Under the pieces are notes generated by a model. It did no database searches. It was not told the DNA's origin and saw nothing but the letters and a program-made list of their open reading frames with translations. Below are positions 2,619-31,047 of a stretch of 32,316 nt of DNA, piece by piece. Both the position numbers and the translations under genes were made by a program. The stretch spans positions 1 through 32,316 of IMG/VR virus record IMGVR_UViG_3300031999_000128; one strand, 5' to 3'. Every line of letters starts with the position of its first letter. Positions within the stretch are counted from its first letter, which is position 1. This stretch comes from a virus.

Positions 2619-2671
2619 TAAGCATAGAGAGAGATTGGTGCCTTATTCACCAGTCTTTCTCTCCCTGCTTA
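2619..2671 (+). other. long leader hairpin
   Basis: An outer 6-bp stem (2619-2624 with 2666-2671, TAAGCA/TGCTTA) stacks on an inner 15-bp stem (2626-2640 with 2648-2662, two G-U pairs), with a small internal loop and a 7-nt CCTTATT loop. No T run follows, and the structure ends 16 nt before the ATG at 2688. It therefore looks more like an RNA stability or processing element than a simple terminator. Confidence 0.6.
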
Positions 2672-2687
2672 CATTAAAACAATTATT

Positions 2688-2816
2688 ATGTGGGCAATTA
2701 TACTTTCCTTAACAATATCATCTGTAATAGCAATAGGATGGGCTAGTGGCATAGGTAGAATGCATGAGGAATATCCTGATTATGATGGAGATGATTTCTT
2801 AAACAACGATATATGA
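2688..2816 (+). CDS. 42-residue single-helix membrane protein
   Basis: This short ORF encodes 42 residues: an N-terminal hydrophobic helix (about residues 2-19, rich in Ile, Leu, Ser and Ala) followed by an acidic tail (EEYPDYDGDDF). A single-pass protein with an acidic cytoplasmic or periplasmic tail is likely. Its stop overlaps the start of the next gene (ATG at 2813, TGA at 2814-2816), and it starts just after the strong hairpin at 2619-2671. Both facts support it as a real gene. No family is recognised. Confidence 0.5.
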   Translation: MWAIILSLTISSVIAIGWASGIGRMHEEYPDYDGDDFLNNDI

Positions 2817-3121
2817 TACCTTGTATTTGCATTGATGACAGCAGAAGACCTAGAATGGTTCCTGCTAACAAATGGCTGGTTAAAGACCAGGAATATCATG
2901 TAATTTATACAGTGACTGTGCTTCCACAGAAACAATTAGCAGTTCATTTAGCTGAAATAGACCTTGATGAATCATGTAAGCCTTATGAATACTTTCTTAG
3001 TTCACGTTTCGCATTCACACAAGAAAACTTATTACTCTTGATGGAATTAATTAAGGATTGCAGTGAGACAGATTTCTCTATTGAGGAGCTATTAGAACAA
3101 ACAGAAACATATGAAACATAA
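2813..3121 (+). CDS. conserved phage hypothetical (IPCICIDDS type)
   Basis: This encodes 102 residues and opens with the motif MIPCICIDDSRRP, followed by a P(A)NKWLVKDQEYHV block. From memory, this opening is shared by short proteins common in Bacteroidota phages and mobile elements, with unknown role. The centre predicts beta strands and the C-terminus is acidic and helical. It is coupled to the membrane peptide upstream (4-base overlap) and overlaps the next gene by 11 bp, so the three genes form one translational unit. Confidence 0.65.
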   Translation: MIPCICIDDSRRPRMVPANKWLVKDQEYHVIYTVTVLPQKQLAVHLAEIDLDESCKPYEYFLSSRFAFTQENLLLLMELIKDCSETDFSIEELLEQTETYET

Positions 3122-3488
3122 ATTTAACAAAGAAGCAGGAGTTTGGTACATAGACCTTCCTGCATTTATAAATGCAAACATAGGCACAAAAGCCAATCTT
3201 ATGATGGTGGCTGGTGCTGATACATTGTTAGACACAATGTCTGATAATGGAGATACAATAACATTAACACTTGGTGAAGAACCATTTGATGGATATACAG
3301 ATACACTAGTTAAAACAGGAATAGGAAAAGATCAAAAGCTATTAGACTCTTACAATCACCCTCAGGTGGAATATGGAGCATATTATACAGCTGTTGAACG
3401 TAATCACAATCTTTGGTTGTGCCCTGTAACAGAATATGTATTTAACGGTAGTTATCCTGATAAGATATATGTTAAAAAAGAAAGTTAG
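3111..3488 (+). CDS. conserved hypothetical (possibly DUF6717-like)
   Basis: This encodes 125 residues. The pattern GVWYIDLP, then a hydrophobic MMVAGADTLLD block and a C-terminal WLCPVTEYVF strand, resembles a small conserved family I associate with DUF6717; this is recollection and not certain. It has no membrane segment or cysteine cluster. It is probably a compact beta-rich cytoplasmic protein. It overlaps the upstream gene by 11 bp and is followed by a terminator (3509-3540). The function is unknown. Confidence 0.6.
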   Translation: MKHKFNKEAGVWYIDLPAFINANIGTKANLMMVAGADTLLDTMSDNGDTITLTLGEEPFDGYTDTLVKTGIGKDQKLLDSYNHPQVEYGAYYTAVERNHNLWLCPVTEYVFNGSYPDKIYVKKES

Positions 3489-4793: not shown

Positions 4794-4982
4794 ATGGAAA
4801 ATCTTTACGATTATCTCCTTCATTACAACCATTTTGATAAACTATGGAGTGCTATTCCAAGAGATCAATACAATGCGTATTGGAGTAATAGAAAGGTGGA
4901 AGGTGTAATAAAATCAAAGAACATTAAAACACTAATTGAATTGATTACAAGAGGTGAAGAATTCATTAAAACAATTGAATAA
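4794..4982 (+). CDS. hypothetical protein preceding polymerase
   Basis: This encodes 62 residues: an aromatic-rich N-terminal half (MENLYDYLLHYNHF, then WSAIPRDQYNAYW) and a Lys/Ile-rich helix. Its stop TAA (4980-4982) shares its last A with the ATG of the polymerase gene, giving tight coupling. It has no recognised domain. Position suggests a role tied to replication, but this is context only. Confidence 0.6.
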   Translation: MENLYDYLLHYNHFDKLWSAIPRDQYNAYWSNRKVEGVIKSKNIKTLIELITRGEEFIKTIE

Positions 4983-6940
4983 TGAATGTACTGATATATG
5001 ATATAGAAACCATGCAGGAGTTATTCCTGGTTGGTATATATGATCCTACCACAGAGCTTTACTTTGAGTTTGAAGTGAGTAAGAATACAAATGAGCTTGA
5101 TTCATTTGTTAGATTCACAGAAGCACACAAAGAACACTATTGGGTGGGATATAACAATCTTAGGTTTGACAGCCAAGTGGTTGAATGGATCTTGAGAAAC
5201 TATGAACAATGGCATGAGTTAGGAGCCCTTGAAATCACTGCTAAAATAGCCCAGAAAGCTGCTGATGTTATACATGATGCAAACTTTGATGTATTCCCTG
5301 AATATAAAGAAGAATGGTTAACATTAAAACAGTTAGATCTATTCAAAGTGAACCACTACGATAATAAAAATCGTAGAGTTTCACTAAAAAGATTAGAGTT
5401 TGAAATGGATCTAGAGAACATTGAAGAAATGCCTATTCATCACACTAAAACAAACATGACAGATGAAGAGATATATCTCTCCAAAAGCTATTGTAATAAT
5501 GATGTTTTGGCGACTTATGAGTTTTACAAGGTAACCACTGGTGATACTAATCATCCATTATATCGTGGAAACAATCAAATAGAGTTGAGACAAGATATAG
5601 AAGCAGAGTTTGGTATTCCATGTTTAAACTATTCTGATTCAAAGATAGGTGATGAGATGATTAAGAAGTTCTATTGTGTAGAGAAGAACATAAACCCTTC
5701 TGATCTACCAAAGAAAGGAACATTTAGAAAATCCATTCCTGTTAAGAATTGTGTAGCTGAATATGTTACCTTTGAGACTCCAGAGCTTAAAGCGTTCTAT
5801 AAGAGAATAAGATCAATGAGCCTTGGATTACAAGATGATTTCAAAGAGACAATAAACTTCTATAATAATGCATACACTTTTGCAAAGGGTGGACTTCATA
5901 CTGAGAATGGTCCAAAAGTTTTTGAAGCCACTGATGATTATCTTATCATTGATTGGGACGTTAGCTCTTATTATCCTGCTATCATCATTAATAATGGTCG
6001 TTACCCTCAGCATCTTGGTAAAGAGTTTCTATCAGGATATAAGAAGATGTTTGAGAAGCGATTAGAGCTCAAACCACTAGCTAAGAAGGACAAACGTATA
6101 GCTGGTATAGTTGGAGCCCTTAAACTGGCTGTAAATAGCGTATATGGTAAGAGTTCTGATATGCAGAATTGGATTTATGACAGACAATTGACTATGTTCA
6201 CCACTATTACAGGTGAATTGAGTCTTTTGATGCTTATAGAACAGTATGAACTCAATGGTATACATGTTATATCAGCTAACACTGATGGAGTGACAATACT
6301 TGTAAAAAATGCAAGTTTTGATAAAATGCAAGAGATTAATAAGTGGTGGATGGATTTAACTACATATGAGCTCGAACGCACTGATTATCAGAAGATTATA
6401 TTCTCAACAGTAAATGATTATTTAGCAATTAAAACCAATGGAGATGTTAAAAAGAAAGGTGATTTCCTTACAGATTTTGAGTTACATAAGAATAAGTCTG
6501 CTAGGGTGTGTTCTATTGCCCTTGAGCAGTATTTCGTTAATAATGTTGCTATTGATGACACTATCAGAAATCATACAAGTATTTATGATTTCTGTCTTAG
6601 ACAAAAAGCTTCAAAAGACTTTCATTATGAAGGAATTAATAAGACTACAGGTGAGAAAAATGTTTACAATAAACTTATTCGCTATTATGTATCTAAAAGA
6701 GGTGAAAAACTCCTTAAAGTAAAGAATGAAAACTGTGACACTAATGCTGCTGATGTTTCTCAAGTTGAAGCAGGTGAATGGGTGATGCATGTATGCAATC
6801 ATCTTACAAAAGATCATTCTCTTGATAACATCAATTATGATTATTATATAGAGAGAGCAAATAAGATTGTACATAAAATTGTTACAGAAGGTAGAAAAAG
6901 AAAAATTATTATCAATCCTGATCAACTTTCGTTATTTTAG
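4982..6940 (+). CDS. family B DNA polymerase with 3'-5' exonuclease
   Basis: This encodes 652 residues and copies phage DNA with proofreading. Exonuclease motifs are visible: Exo I YDIET at residues 6-10, Exo II YNNLRFD at about 57-63 and Exo III YCNNDVLATYEFY at about 171-183. Polymerase motifs follow: motif A DWDVSSYYP (catalytic Asp with SYYP), motif B KLAVNSVYG and motif C ANTDG. In motif C a single Asp is preceded by Asn-Thr where most family B enzymes read DTD. At 652 residues it is short for the family, about the size of compact phage enzymes. It lies downstream of the regulator and a promoter-like box and ends in TAG at the triple repeat 6940-6965. Confidence 0.93.
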   Translation: MNVLIYDIETMQELFLVGIYDPTTELYFEFEVSKNTNELDSFVRFTEAHKEHYWVGYNNLRFDSQVVEWILRNYEQWHELGALEITAKIAQKAADVIHDANFDVFPEYKEEWLTLKQLDLFKVNHYDNKNRRVSLKRLEFEMDLENIEEMPIHHTKTNMTDEEIYLSKSYCNNDVLATYEFYKVTTGDTNHPLYRGNNQIELRQDIEAEFGIPCLNYSDSKIGDEMIKKFYCVEKNINPSDLPKKGTFRKSIPVKNCVAEYVTFETPELKAFYKRIRSMSLGLQDDFKETINFYNNAYTFAKGGLHTENGPKVFEATDDYLIIDWDVSSYYPAIIINNGRYPQHLGKEFLSGYKKMFEKRLELKPLAKKDKRIAGIVGALKLAVNSVYGKSSDMQNWIYDRQLTMFTTITGELSLLMLIEQYELNGIHVISANTDGVTILVKNASFDKMQEINKWWMDLTTYELERTDYQKIIFSTVNDYLAIKTNGDVKKKGDFLTDFELHKNKSARVCSIALEQYFVNNVAIDDTIRNHTSIYDFCLRQKASKDFHYEGINKTTGEKNVYNKLIRYYVSKRGEKLLKVKNENCDTNAADVSQVEAGEWVMHVCNHLTKDHSLDNINYDYYIERANKIVHKIVTEGRKRKIIINPDQLSLF

Positions 6941-20854: not shown

Positions 20855-21274
20855 ATGGCTATAAAGAAAAAAGCAATAAAAACAAAAACAGCAAAACCTA
20901 GAAAAGGTGCAGCACCTAAAACTAGAAATGCTGGAACCCTCACAGAATCTGCATTCTGGTCCTTTATTAGAAGTGGACTAAGACAAAAGAGTAGGTTTTG
21001 GAAACCAATTACAGAATGCAAGATGAAATCTCGTAGGGCTTATAAAGGTCCTAATAAGAGACAAAAGTTTGAATATTTGTGTAATGTTTGTAATAAATGG
21101 TTCCCAGAGAAGAAAATAAACATTGACCACATACATCCAGCAGGCTCATTGAGATGTGCAAATGACCTCCCAGGATTTGTTGAAAGACTGTTCTGTGAGC
21201 AGGAAAATTTACAATGCATTTGCGAGGGTTGTCATGACACAAAGACCAAAAAAGAAAGAAATAAGTCTTTATAG
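20855..21274 (+). CDS. HNH endonuclease-like protein
   Basis: This encodes 139 residues. A Lys/Arg-rich tail (residues 1-30) leads to a helical region, then the HNH core: CNVCNKWFP near residues 76-84, IDHIHPAG near 91-98, then LFCEQENLQCICEGCHDTKTKK with the second CxxC and the final His. All metal-binding Cys and His of the zinc-stabilised HNH type are present. The protein is conserved in phages of this type from memory, and it probably acts in DNA processing rather than homing. It has a terminator in front and overlaps the next gene by 41 bp. Confidence 0.75.
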   Translation: MAIKKKAIKTKTAKPRKGAAPKTRNAGTLTESAFWSFIRSGLRQKSRFWKPITECKMKSRRAYKGPNKRQKFEYLCNVCNKWFPEKKINIDHIHPAGSLRCANDLPGFVERLFCEQENLQCICEGCHDTKTKKERNKSL

Positions 21275-24519: not shown

Positions 24520-25492
24520 ATGGATTTAGGATTAGAAGCCTTATCAAATCTGACCATTTTTAGCAAGTATGCTAAATTTAAGCCAGAATTTAAAAGAAGA
24601 GAACCCTGGGATGAAATAGTTGATCGCTACCAGGATATGATGATCAAGAAATACCCAAGTCTTAAAGATGCTATTGTAAAAAGTGCTGAGCTAATTAGAG
24701 CTAAGAAAGTCTTACCATCTATGAGAGCTCTACAATTTGCAGGAGTAGCAGCTGAAGTTAATAATGCTCGTATCTATAACTGTTGTTTCCTACCTATGGA
24801 TGATTATAGATCATTCTCTGAGACAATGTTCCTATTATTAGGAGGAACAGGTGTGGGGTATTCTGTACAGAAGCACCACGTTGAACAACTTCCAGTGATT
24901 ACAAAACCTGGTAAGAAGAAAACATATCTAATAGAAGATTCTATCATGGGATGGGCTGATGCTGTAAAGGTGTTATTTAAAGCTTATATGGAAGGTAAAT
25001 TCCTACCTACATTTGACTTTAGAGCTATTAGACATAAAGGAGCTAGATTGGTTACAGCTGGTGGTAAAGCCCCAGGTCCTGAACCATTGAAATTGTGTCT
25101 CACACATATACAAGCTATTCTTGATAGAAAACAAGAGGGAGAAAGACTAACTACACTAGAGTGTCATGATATTCTTTGTCACATTGCTAACAGTGTTCTT
25201 GCTGGTGGTATTCGTAGAAGTGCTATGATTGCTTTGTTCAGTCATGATGATGAGGAAATGATTACATGTAAGTATGGGAATTGGTGGGAAACTAATGAAC
25301 AGCGTGGTAGAGCTAATAACTCTGCTGTATTAGAGAGAGGTTCTGTAGGAGAAGAAGAGTTTCAAGCTTTATGGAAAAGAATTGAAGCTTCTGGATCTGG
25401 AGAGCCTGGTATCTACTGGACTAACAATAAAGATTGGGGAACTAATCCTTGTTGTGAGATTGGATTAAGACCTTATCAGTTCTGTAATCTCT
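24520..25492 (+). CDS. nrdJ: class II ribonucleotide reductase NrdJ, exon 1
   Basis: This is the first 324 codons plus one base of an adenosylcobalamin-dependent ribonucleotide reductase, which makes deoxynucleotides for phage DNA. N-terminal features include NNARIYNCCFLP and the LLLGGTGVGYSV nucleotide-site segment; the middle has NSVLAGGIRRSAM. Exon 1 ends just after the active-site block (NPCCEIGLRP, then YQFCNL). The last base T25492 belongs to the codon completed by exon 2. Without splicing, translation would stop at 25492-25494. Splicing to 26223 gives CNLCEVNVSD, a smooth match to the family. The predicted spliced protein is 634 residues, slightly short but complete at both ends. Confidence 0.88.
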
Positions 25493-26222
25493 AAACTTTC
25501 ATGGAGATTTAAAACCCTGAGAATTGCTGGGAACTCTGACCACTTGAAGGTGAAGACAATCAGCAGCCGAGCTTAGAAATAAGAAGGTTCAACGACTAGT
25601 CGAAAGACGTACACTCAAGTGAGTGGAAGCACAGGGCCCTTGAAAAAGGTGATGATATAGTCTGAACAATATAGAAATATATTGATGAAAATTTGGAAAT
25701 CTCAAATAAGTTCTGTAACTTTGTAAAAATACAAAACTTATGAGAGTAAATAGAGAAGGTTATAAAATATCAGAGACAGAACGAGAATGTACTAATTGTG
25801 GTACAATGTTCTTAAAAACCTCAAAAACAGTAACACTTTGTAATAAATGTAATTCTGAAAGAGTCAAGTGCACAGACCCTGAAGTAAAAATGTTACAAAG
25901 AGCAAAAAATCGAGCTAAATTAAAAGATTTAGAATTTGATTTAACTGTAAAAGATATAATTATACCGAAACATTGTCCTATTCTTGGAATAGAATTAGTT
26001 TGTAAAAGTGGAACATCAGGAGGTCAGAAAAACTCTCCTGCTTTAGATAGAAAAGATTCAAAAAGGGGCTATACTAAAGATAATGTACAAGTGATAAGTC
26101 ATCTAGCAAATATGATGAAAAGTCATGCCACTGAAGAAGAGTTAATTGCTTTTGCAAATTGGATAATAAATTCTCTACCAAAGGATTCTAGTCAAGCTTA
26201 ACGAACTTGATTGAACATGTTG
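25493..26222 (+). mobile_element. group I intron in nrdJ with internal HNH gene
   Basis: The 730-bp insert interrupts nrdJ. P1: exon AATCTC (25486-25491) pairs with GAGATT (25504-25509), and the splice-site U25492 pairs with G25503, the conserved U-G. P10: the exon 2 start GTGAAG can pair with TTTCAT (25497-25502), allowing G-U pairs. The core R element GTTCAACGACTA (25587-25598) and S element GATATAGTCT (25654-25663) form P7 as GACTA/TAGTC (25594-25598, 25658-25662), with P8 CACTC/GAGTG (25612-25616, 25621-25625). The terminal omega-G is G26222. This suits a group IA-type intron. Its HNH gene lies after the core (25740-26201), in the P9 region. Confidence 0.9.
25740..26201 (+). CDS. HNH homing endonuclease encoded in the intron
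   Basis: This encodes 153 residues. Two CxxC pairs (CTNC at about residues 17-20 and CNKC at 34-37) make an N-terminal zinc-ribbon. The nuclease core reads HCPILGIEL, then PALDRKDSKRGYT and DNVQVIS, the HNH variant typical of phage homing endonucleases, followed by a helical NMMKSHATEEEL end. It is expected to cut intronless nrdJ alleles near the insertion site and so spread the intron. The gene starts 77 bp after the core S element and ends 21 bp before the 3' splice site. Both zinc-ribbon and HNH residues look intact, so it is probably active. Confidence 0.85.
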   Translation: MRVNREGYKISETERECTNCGTMFLKTSKTVTLCNKCNSERVKCTDPEVKMLQRAKNRAKLKDLEFDLTVKDIIIPKHCPILGIELVCKSGTSGGQKNSPALDRKDSKRGYTKDNVQVISHLANMMKSHATEEELIAFANWIINSLPKDSSQA

Positions 26223-27154
26223 GTGAAGTGAATGTTAGTGATGTTGAGAATCAAACAGATCTTAATGATCGTGTAACTGTAGCAGCGTTCTTTAGAACAC
26301 TACAAGCTGGTTTTACAGATTTTCACTATTTGCGTCCAATTTGGAAACAAACTACAGATAAAGATGCTCTATTAGGAATAGGTATGACAGGAATTGGTTC
26401 AGGAAAGATTCTTGAGGCTAATCTTACCATAGCTGCTAATACAGCTAAAGTGGTTAACTCTATGATTTCTGCTATAATAGGAACTAATGAAGCAGCTAGA
26501 ATAACATGTGTTAAGCCTTCAGGTACAACTAGTTGTGTTTTGGGAACAGCATCTGGTATTCATGCATGGCATGCTCCTTATTATTTAAGAACTGTAAGAT
26601 TTGGTAAGAGTGAGGACATTGCAGCTTATATGATGGTAAATCACCCTGAATTATGTGAGGATGATGTTTTAAGGCCCAAGGATACACTTTGTGTAAGAAT
26701 ACCTATCAAGGCACCAGAAGGATCTATATTCAGAACAGAGACAGCTATAGACACTTTAGAGAGAGTTAAGAAGTTTTCTCAAGAGTGGATTTTACCTGGT
26801 CATGTTAAAGGAGATAATACACATAATGTATCAGCTACAATTTCTATTACTAATAGTCGTTTCTATACTATACAAGAGGATAAGAGTATAGATCTTTTTA
26901 AAATGCAACTAGAATGGGACGCTGTAGGAGAATGGATGTGGGAAAATAGAGAATTCTATAATGGTTTGTCAGTGCTCCCCTATGATAATGGAAGTTATGT
27001 CCAACCACCTTTTGAGGACATAACAGAAGAGGAATATAATAAAAGAATCACTACATTGCATTCTCTTGATCTAACAAAGGTTATGGAAATAGATGATAAT
27101 GTAGAATTTGGTCAGACTGCAGCTTGCAGTGGAGGAAGCTGTGCCATAGAATAA
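26223..27154 (+). CDS. nrdJ: class II ribonucleotide reductase NrdJ, exon 2
   Basis: This is the C-terminal part, from the third segment of the CNLCEVNVSD block onward. It contains AAFFRTLQAGFTDFHYLR, MTGIGSG, CVKPSGTTSCVLGTASGIHAWHAPYYLR (the PSGT segment of class II enzymes) and a C-terminal CSGGSC redox pair. The open frame begins upstream within the intron with an apparent TTG at 26207, but that stretch (LIEHVG) is intron-derived and does not fit the family. The terminal Cys pair serves to re-reduce the active site. A terminator and promoter follow. Confidence 0.88.
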
Positions 27155-29270: not shown

Positions 29271-29430
29271 ATGAAATGTAAAACATGTGGTAAGAATGCT
29301 GATTTGGAATTCTATACTTGAGGCTGCAAAAGAATTAAATGTATCTTCTGGTAGTATTGGAAATGCTTTATCTAAAACAAATAGACAAAAAACTTGTAAA
29401 GGTTATAAATGGAAATATGAAAACTTGTAA
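29271..29430 (+). pseudogene. remnant of an HNH/NUMOD1 homing endonuclease
   Basis: The first 16 codons (ATG at 29271) encode MKCKTCGKNADLEFYT, the zinc-ribbon opening of phage HNH endonucleases, and then meet TGA at 29319-29321. In another frame, from about 29320 to 29430, the codons read EAAKELNVSSGSIGN and then CKGYKWKY, a NUMOD1 DNA-binding tail followed by a stop. The start and end of a homing endonuclease appear joined by a large internal deletion plus frame loss, leaving about 160 bp. It overlaps the 5' end of the HNH-like nuclease gene at 29417. Confidence 0.6.
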
Positions 29431-29821
29431 AATAAAAAATTGTAATAATACTATATGGAGCAATAGACTTTGTAAAAACCATATACCCAGGAAACCACTT
29501 GCTAAGACTAAAATGATGTCAAGTTTACCACCCAAAAAACTTGACAATCAGATGTCTGAGATGAATATATTTTTCTTACAAATATGGACTAAAAGAAAAC
29601 ATCGTTCAGAAATAAGTGGAGATCCTCTAGGATCAGAGCCTTTAACAATATTCTTTCATCATATTCTCCCAAAAGAAAAATTTCCTCAAGCAAAATTTGA
29701 TGAAGATAACATAATTCTTCTTACCTTTGATGAACATAACAATGTAGAAGGTGATATATACAAATATGAAGAGGTAAATGAAAGACGTAAACATTTAAAA
29801 CTTAAGTATGAAAGAAACTAA
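29417..29821 (+). CDS. HNH-like nuclease (FHHILPK type)
   Basis: This encodes 134 residues from the ATG at 29417; the longer frame upstream overlaps the endonuclease remnant. A Cys pair at MKTCKIKNCNN and a second, CKNH, make a short zinc-binding N-terminus. The C-terminal half reads HRSEISGDPL, then FFHHILPKEKFP and NIILLTFDEHNNVEGD. The HH-ILPK and DEHNN pattern is an HNH/NinG-like nuclease signature I recall from phages; the family name is uncertain. It overlaps phoH by 14 bp. The probable role is DNA processing. Confidence 0.6.
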   Translation: MKTCKIKNCNNTIWSNRLCKNHIPRKPLAKTKMMSSLPPKKLDNQMSEMNIFFLQIWTKRKHRSEISGDPLGSEPLTIFFHHILPKEKFPQAKFDEDNIILLTFDEHNNVEGDIYKYEEVNERRKHLKLKYERN

Positions 29822-30461
29822 TAGAGAACGTAAGCAAGACATTAAATACAAAATCACCCTTAATGAAGAACAAAAAGAAGTTAAGAGGTTGATTCTTGAG
29901 AATCAGATAGTTGTAATCACTGGTAGAGCTGGTTGTGGTAAGAGCCTTGTAAGTGCACAATGTGCTCTAGACTTCCTCTTTAAGAAGCAATGTGACCAAA
30001 TCCTTGTAACTAGGGCTGCTGTAGAAGTGGGTCATTCATTAGGCTTCCTACCTGGTTCTCTTAATGAGAAGTTTGATCCTTATTTAGAAGCATTCCAAGA
30101 AAACTTAGTTAAGTGCTACGATAAGGTGAAGGTGGAAGAGCTTATTAGAGATAAGAAAGTGTTAGCCCTTCCTGTACAGTTCATTAGAGGAAAGACTGTT
30201 GATGATGTTCTTGTTGTAGAGGAAGCTCAAAATCTTACAAAAGCTGAGATGTTAGCCATTCTAACAAGACTAGGTAAAACTGGTAAAATCATTATCAATG
30301 GAGATAATGAACAAAAGGATATTAGAGATGAGTTTAATGGACTTAGCTATGTCATAGACCTTTCTAAGAAGATTAAGGAGATTAAATGGATTAAGCTTAA
30401 GCACAATCACAGAAGTGATCTTGTTGGAAAGATTTTACATATAGAATATGGAAAACCATAA
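29808..30461 (+). CDS. phoH: PhoH-like ATPase
   Basis: This encodes 217 residues. Walker A is GRAGCGKS near residues 39-46, and the Walker B region VLVVEEAQN (residues near 140-148) plus INGDNEQKD follow the PhoH family pattern. PhoH proteins are P-loop ATPases found in many phages, of uncertain exact role (RNA-related functions are proposed). The protein ends with HNHRSDLVGKILHIEYGKP. The ATG of the GIY-YIG gene at 30466 lies 4 bp after its stop, so the insertion did not truncate it, as far as can be seen. Confidence 0.85.
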   Translation: MKETNRERKQDIKYKITLNEEQKEVKRLILENQIVVITGRAGCGKSLVSAQCALDFLFKKQCDQILVTRAAVEVGHSLGFLPGSLNEKFDPYLEAFQENLVKCYDKVKVEELIRDKKVLALPVQFIRGKTVDDVLVVEEAQNLTKAEMLAILTRLGKTGKIIINGDNEQKDIRDEFNGLSYVIDLSKKIKEIKWIKLKHNHRSDLVGKILHIEYGKP

Positions 30462-30465
30462 ACAT

Positions 30466-31047
30466 ATGAAAGGATACATTTATAAAATAACAAGTCCATC
30501 TAATAAAATTTACATTGGTCAAACTATAGATATTGATATTAGAAAAAATAAATATAAATATCTAAACTGTAAAAATCAAACAAGATTATATAGATCTCTT
30601 TTAAAATATGGATGGGAAAATCATGTATTTGAAATTATAGAAACAATAGAGACTAATGATATAAATCAATTAAATTCTTTAGAAATAGAATGGATATCTA
30701 AATTAGATTGTTTTAATACAGGATTAAATTGCACATTAGGTGGACATGGTACTTCTGGTAGAAAATGTTCTAAAGAAACCAAACTTAAAATGAGAAATTC
30801 TCAACTTGGTAAAAAACAATCTATAGAAACTATAGCTAAAAGAGTAGTTAATTTAGTAGGTAAAAAAAGAGATAATACTTTTAAAGAAAAATTAAGAAAA
30901 GCTCATACTGGAAAAATACTTTCTGAAGAAACTAAAGAAAAAATTAGAAAACATAATATTGGAAAAGTTTTAACAGAAGAACACAGACAAAAAATAACAG
31001 AAGGATTAAAAAGAAGGTATCAGCAAAAGAAAGAAAATAAATTATAA
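30466..31047 (+). CDS. free-standing GIY-YIG homing endonuclease
   Basis: This encodes 193 residues from the ATG at 30466, just after phoH; an ATG at 30448 in the same frame would overlap phoH. The GIY-YIG nuclease reads MKGYIYKIT and then YIGQTIDIDIRKNKY, with a later catalytic-type Glu segment (LEIEW). The C-terminal 90 residues hold repeated NUMOD3-like units, such as GRKCSKETKLKM and GKILSEETKEKIRKH, a DNA-binding tail found in homing endonucleases. It is not inside an intron. The gene is more A+T-rich and Lys-rich than its neighbours, suggesting recent arrival. Confidence 0.8.
   Translation: MKGYIYKITSPSNKIYIGQTIDIDIRKNKYKYLNCKNQTRLYRSLLKYGWENHVFEIIETIETNDINQLNSLEIEWISKLDCFNTGLNCTLGGHGTSGRKCSKETKLKMRNSQLGKKQSIETIAKRVVNLVGKKRDNTFKEKLRKAHTGKILSEETKEKIRKHNIGKVLTEEHRQKITEGLKRRYQQKKENKL

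Follow-up and report, generated by a model that had tools for sequence, protein, structure and literature searches.

The class II ribonucleotide reductase (RNR) gene nrdJ of the phage analyzed here very probably contains a self-splicing, mobile group I intron of the IA type, lying three codons past a catalytic cysteine and moved by nuclease-driven homing. The window comprises positions 1 to 32316 of IMG/VR record IMGVR_UViG_3300031999_000128; the intron (730 nt) occupies positions 25493-26222, and all features of nrdJ and its intron are on the plus strand. The DNA polymerase of this phage is at most about 33% identical to that of named phages. Homologous introns with the same nuclease family were found at about 35 loci, at three insertion points within 7 nt: site A (0, TTCTGT^AAC), site C (+6) and site B (+7), the last being that of the window.

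The open reading frames at 24520-25494 and 26207-27154 are the two halves of a single class II ribonucleotide reductase gene. Exon 1 (24520-25492) matches positions 34-401 of the ribonucleotide reductase profile phrog_367 (E 1.2e-75) and exon 2 (26223-27154) positions 402-697 (E 2.6e-35), so that the profile continues exactly across the junction, from 401 to 402. The family profile over both exons, together with the active-site segment NPCxE...C, identifies the product as NrdJ; its homologues in CRP-7 and Rhizobium phages carry the annotation adenosylcobalamin-dependent. Exon 1 is 79-90% identical to uninterrupted homologues and covers residues 1-324 and one base of codon 325; its end lies three codons past the active-site FC. 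Removal of 25493-26222 leaves an open frame of 635 codons (634 amino acids and the stop) reading ...NPCCEIGLRPYQFCNLCEVNVSD..., and the joined-exon protein around the junction is NPCCEIGLRPYQFCNL followed by CEVNVSD. The earlier note had predicted splicing after T25492 and G26222, with a product, CNLCEVNVSD, that restores the family block. Both predictions were borne out, the splice sites to the base, with P1, P10, the terminal G and the open frame all in agreement. The note had also rightly placed the insertion near the active-site segment NPCCEI, but at about 15 residues beyond it; the junction lies 10 residues past the I of this segment and 14 past its first cysteine, splitting the next cysteine codon between T and GT. 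In Lactobacillus RTPR numbering, the radical cysteine would be C408, 14 codons before the junction, and the second active-site cysteine C419, three codons before it.

Scanning the window against Rfam yielded a match to the whole of model RF00028 (25452-25684 against model positions 1-253; 71.8 bits, E 1.5e-16; gathering score, 50 bits) and, apart from this intron, no match reaching the gathering score. The insert had been called a group I intron with a U-G pair in P1, a possible P10, P7, P8 and a terminal (omega) G; the covariance model confirmed the call and each of these elements was found. P1 (25486-25509) pairs the exon bases AAUCUCU (25486-25492) with the internal guide GGAGAUU (25503-25509) over 7 bp ending in a U.G; double changes occur at two of its pairs, and the U.G at the 5′ splice site is present in 20 of 20 aligned introns. 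In the P1 loop, UUUCAU (25497-25502) forms the P10 guide, a 6-bp partner to GUGAAG of exon 2 (26223-26228); locus L003 has a compensatory change, CCUCAU with GUGAGG. P10 is shorter elsewhere: introns at sites A and C have 2-5 bp, and L187 has 3 bp. When positions 26150-26260 were scanned for the 3′ splice site, a G combined with a 6-bp P10 occurred solely at 26222/26223, where the frame is also kept. The terminal base (26222 in the window) is G in all 35 introns examined. At the other end, an in-frame stop, TAA (25492-25494), spans the splice site, with its T from exon 1 and its AA from the intron. Reading on from exon 1 likewise meets a stop at once in every one of the 35 introns (TAA in 34, TAG in one); its codon phase differs between insertion sites, yet it is always in frame. 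A similar UAA was noted for the Pf-WMP3 intron (PMC3428280).

The ribozyme core (P3-P9) extends from 25515 to 25684. It comprises P3 (25515-19/25632-36), P4 (25525-30/25560-65), P5 (25535-37/25554-56), P6 (25566-68/25586-88), P7 (25594-98/25658-62), P7.1 (25599-25608), P7.2 (25612-25625), P8 (25638-41/25646-49) and P9 (25667-73/25678-84). A structure of 52 pairs drawn on the window sequence was tested for covariation on an alignment of 20 related introns. Paired cells made up 94.2% of 1030, compared to 78.5% after shuffling, and none of 500 shuffles was as good. Double changes affected 33 of the 52 pairs, for a total of 149 double-change cells against 39.6 expected, and sliding the partner by 1-3 columns destroyed the signal. 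The P3/P7 pseudoknot, P4-P6, P8 and P9 are all present, P6 and P7 being invariant and hence carrying no covariation information. P7.1 and P7.2 both covary, and their presence assigns the intron to the IA group common in phages; they are the feature expected of subgroup IA2, one candidate among the IA subgroups, and the intron is best described as IA-like. Single-sequence folding of its 5′ part, mildly better than that of shuffles (z -1.86), was dropped as evidence for the ribozyme. The window's insert is not an intein: its very first codon is a stop, and it contains a complete group I core.

The related introns are unequally divided among the three insertion points. Site A is occupied at some two dozen loci, site C at L306 (CTT^AGT) and apparently at L207, and site B in the window, its close relatives and L187; about 25 introns lie at the sites neighboring that of the window. 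Among those at site A, 7 nt upstream of the window's site, are the RF00028 introns contained in the split nrdJ genes of Rhizobium phage RHph_N3_13 and Roseobacter phage CRP-7, where the annotation shows partial reductases separated by a "decoy of host sigma factor" or a hypothetical protein. The gene at positions 3001-3447 of L162 (MN988507.1, EVB79_080) is labeled "postulated decoy of host sigma factor", yet it is an intron-borne nuclease of this family. The guide pairs six bases with its own site in nearly all introns, and every relative keeps the reading frame over the junction. On the ribozyme tree the site label requires the minimum of two changes, whereas on the nuclease tree the sites are interleaved. 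Specifically, the nucleases of L306 (+6) and CRP-7 (0) form a sister pair, with support 100/98, whereas a sister relation of their ribozymes is rejected (AU p 0.0026); this indicates at least one nuclease-ribozyme exchange, with the caution that the L306 ribozyme branch is long. Non-monophyly of the site-B nucleases, on account of L187, is not claimed (AU p 0.197). The insertion site is set by the ribozyme lineage, and nucleases and ribozymes have probably reassorted.

Relatives of the nuclease also occur as free-standing genes, shortly downstream of uninterrupted RNR genes in L180, L186 and L192, and beside a more distant RNR in L200, L202 and L203, in each case with no RF00028 match nearby. 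We tentatively postulate, at somewhat less than even confidence, that a nuclease family directed at the FCNL codons is shared by several ribozyme lineages that differ in guide and site, and has been exchanged among ribozymes and free-standing spots beside RNR genes. If true, the series would display the stagewise union of nuclease and ribozyme on one target, along with a shift of the site by a few bases during homing. A less likely account, although one retaining some weight, is that points 0, +6 and +7 represent independent colonizations by separate elements that are alike through their common IA core. Group I cores are indeed similar in general, and the ribozyme tree has few strong branches, those of L306, L162 and L187 being long. 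However, the nucleases form a single family, 53-91% identical to that of the window, and the pairing of the L306 and CRP-7 nucleases unites points +6 and 0.

Comparison of carriers with non-carriers argues strongly for mobility. The same element is present at the same site in nine other IMG/VR contigs, and a more distant one in a tenth (L187), while nrdJ is uninterrupted at this site in about 70 related phages. On a NrdJ protein tree of 80 loci (10 with the intron, 70 empty), the distribution calls for 8 changes, no better than shuffled labels. Between the window and L002/L003, dS is 0.39/0.45 for the nuclease gene and 1.86/1.30 for exon 1; the far lower value of the nuclease indicates that the insert reached these genomes after the surrounding genes had diverged. 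The near-allelic pair L126 (intron-bearing, on the same contig as L003) and L120 (empty) shows 97% identity over 4 kb of the left flank, with mismatches bunched within 19 nt before the site and about 9 nt after it. Similarly, the cultured Rhizobium phages N3_13, which has the intron, and N3_19, which lacks it, are 91-98% identical over aligned stretches, with a fall to 76-84% in most bins up to about 100 nt from the insertion. The Leu codon before the junction is CTC in all carriers and in no intron-free allele of the same phage group. We interpret the CTC codon, the scattered presence and the converted flanks as the trace left by homing with flank conversion. When site-B intron flanks were compared as a group with those of empty alleles, their excess similarity was confined to the 30 nt closest to the site; mean identity over the group was therefore abandoned as a test of co-conversion in favor of the allelic pairs. 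Thus, intronless alleles with the same site exist and flanks are co-converted, and these comparative data, with the low divergence of the nuclease relative to the exons, strongly support the mobility of the intron. The insertion does lie in a conserved, active-site stretch, as the earlier note had it.

The intron contains an open reading frame (25740-26201) for a putative homing endonuclease of 153 amino acids, with a Cys4 zinc ribbon and a beta-beta-alpha-metal domain (LDR...GY..NV..S..AN.MK). The protein matches phrog_3322 "endonuclease" (E 4.6e-34) and phrog_1035 "endonuclease VII" (E 9.2e-17). Weak matches to phrog_4592 and phrog_1400 (named sigma decoy or Srd) were also noted. The Cys4 ribbon was seen in an alignment of 36 relatives, as was a C-terminal block that does not vary; Asp103, Arg104, Tyr111 and Asn115 are invariant and Asn124 nearly so. 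The AlphaFold model (pLDDT 88.2) contains a predicted beta-beta-alpha unit (strands 100-104 and 116-120, helix 121-127). Its best solved fold match is PacI (PDB 3ldy; Foldseek E 3.2e-4; VIA Z 7.6 over 82 residues, rmsd 3.0, 21% identity), a Z value in the range where similarity may reflect a common arrangement, making structural support modest. T4 Endo VII is a weak match (Z 3.4), and searches by sequence for solved relatives returned zinc-ribbon matches alone. The Pfam search gave no nuclease (HNH) match for the protein. Furthermore, the alignment of 36 relatives contains no column of conserved histidine, neither the catalytic His of classic HNH enzymes nor those of the DHHRN (Endo VII-type) residues, despite the phrog_1035 match. 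The lack of this residue and the modest fold support leave nuclease activity not assured. Nonetheless, in PacI a tyrosine takes the role of the histidine base (PMC4081073), and a missing histidine need not mean inactivity. The designation of the gene as HNH in the earlier note is therefore upheld by the predicted beta-beta-alpha-metal fold and the PHROG names but not by Pfam or a conserved histidine: on the model, it is correct for the predicted fold and unproven for the chemistry. The dN/dS of the nuclease (0.14-0.29) denotes purifying selection. One scan of genome contigs revealed no bacterial home for this protein.

These properties bear on whether homing persists. Conceivably, the ribozyme splices while the nuclease is inactive or otherwise employed (as the annotation "decoy of host sigma70" in some phages might imply) and homing has been lost. 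The missing histidine, the lack of a Pfam nuclease match and the sigma-decoy annotation of the RHph_N3_13 copy speak for this possibility; purifying selection, scattered distribution, dS values low relative to the exons, converted flanks and the precedent of PacI, the closest fold, with its tyrosine (PMC4081073), make it improbable. Least credible of all is a gene in pieces, in which the intron no longer splices and NrdJ consists of two assembling polypeptides, as in Aeromonas phage Aeh1 with its NrdA split by mobE: the exon 2 frame stays open on the upstream side of the junction, with a TTG at 26207, and the split Aeh1 nrdA is reported to be functional without an intron (PMC3653736), but here P1, P10, omega-G and core are intact and covarying, and the splice sites give exact family continuity with the frame over the junction kept in every relative.

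The region preceding the nuclease gene may have a regulatory role. A predicted hairpin (25706-25741) pairs the nuclease start codon; z values for its folding range from -1.3 to -5.3 in site-B relatives, and in the window, at -1.5, it is weak. The leader of the gene is conserved, with a mean column identity of 93%. In T4 intron nucleases, a hairpin hides the ribosome site (PMC2988022), and by analogy translational control of the nuclease is possible. Also upstream of the gene, at 25705-25726, ATAAGTTCTGTAA-CTTTGTAAA resembles the joined exons ATCAGTTCTGTAATCTCTGTGAA. For the window, none of 200 shuffles matched as well; however, two other places in the window score 34 and 28 against 28 for this one, and L002 has no similarity. 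This homing-site mimic was therefore kept as a lead only. As a weaker addition, it could be an autoregulatory operator, as in T4 intron nucleases.

From the architecture, splice sites, purifying selection, horizontal spread and converted flanks, all read from sequence, we infer splicing, cleavage and their timing. P1 would hold exon 1 on the internal guide, allowing guanosine to attack after U25492; the freed exon, aligned by P10, would then attack after G26222, and the ligated mRNA would encode an intact NrdJ. The stop at the 5′ splice site would keep ribosomes off the ribozyme, and the beta-beta-alpha-metal endonuclease would probably be translated sparingly because its start codon is paired. 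The nuclease would cut or nick the uninterrupted nrdJ of co-infecting phages near the FCNL codons, and in the course of repair the recipient allele would acquire the intron together with flanking exon sequence of about 10 to 100 nt.

Group I introns are known in phage RNR genes, including T4 nrdB (I-TevIII, HNH), T4 nrdD (I-TevII), Twort nrdE (I-TwoI, HNH) and SPbeta nrdE/nrdF. Like these, the window's element is a group I intron in a conserved, functionally important RNR stretch, and many of them too carry a nuclease ORF; they differ in lying in class I or III genes and in having other nuclease families. A 2013 survey of split phage RNRs names, for nrdJ, Thermus phage phiYS40, with a 12-nt spacer (PMC3653736). 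Full-text searches of open-licence papers for introns of class II RNR or nrdJ returned no report of the window's intron family. The insertions of the I-TevI and I-BmoI introns are reportedly offset by 21 nt, according to Edgell and Shub in 2001. These related enzymes, from thymidylate synthase introns, nick at the same positions (PMC3161791), providing a precedent for related intron nucleases with offset insertion points in one target gene; they are, however, GIY-YIG enzymes and two cases, whereas here beta-beta-alpha-metal proteins are associated with three points within 7 nt at about 35 loci. The DNA polymerase introns of SPO1, SP82, Bastille and Pf-WMP3 (I-HmuI, I-HmuII, I-BasI, I-PfoP3I) encode HNH enzymes and share one conserved site in widely divergent phages. 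Their insertion position is identical (PMC3428280), while nrdJ introns differ by 6-7 nt between ribozyme lineages. In collaborative homing by F-CphI, a DHHRN enzyme, a free-standing nuclease and the psbA intron share one target (PMC6083498). The nrdJ family is comparable in that its free-standing relatives adjoin uninterrupted RNR genes and in its weak kinship to PHROG endonuclease VII, but the conserved histidines of DHHRN enzymes are absent. PacI has Cys4 motifs beside a beta-beta-alpha-metal site, as does the window's protein, and also lacks the usual His base (PMC4081073), but it is a type II restriction enzyme rather than a homing enzyme. Finally, a phage intron nuclease that nicks the gene of a co-infecting phage can confer a competitive advantage (PMC11620839), and by analogy the nrdJ intron nuclease could do the same.

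Several other insertions and nuclease genes were observed in the window and its relatives. Two close relatives, L096 and L109, have nrdJ divided exactly between NPC and CEI by some 940 nt of in-frame extra sequence (about 4935-5880), at a distance of 14 codons from the intron site. With CFIGSTLVATADG as its start and TSSGVFVHN, before Cys, as its end, this insertion looks like an intein placed at the radical cysteine. L008 (1828-2073; RF00028, 56.2 bits), L187 (1013-1245; 107.1 bits) and L210 (1771-1978; 58.2 bits) each carry another group I intron at a more upstream position of nrdJ, which is thus struck at several places. In the window, a GIY-YIG nuclease gene with NUMOD3 (30448-31047; Pfam above cut-offs) overlaps the end of a phoH gene and is apparently free-standing, as no group I intron surrounds it; two further free-standing HNH-type nuclease genes are at 20855-21274 (phrog_1985, E 4e-24) and 29339-29821 (phrog_144, E 1.5e-5). 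In crAss-like phage cr116_1 (L165; MT774389.1), a relative of the intron nuclease (47%) lies at 2644-3333, between two fragments annotated as DNA polymerase I; this arrangement suggests an intron, although RF00028 gave no match above cut-off.

As a phage passenger the element is of an ordinary sort, although the literature searches turned up no previous group I intron in this class of RNR. Its recognition corrects database labels, in that nrdJ loci now annotated as split genes around a "sigma decoy" or hypothetical protein are interrupted by introns. Rarer is the combination of homologous introns in three registers within 7 nt, free-standing relatives of the nuclease, and the cultured sister phages RHph_N3_13 and N3_19, with and without the intron. 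Together, these make homing, site shifting and nuclease-ribozyme exchange testable by a laboratory cross.
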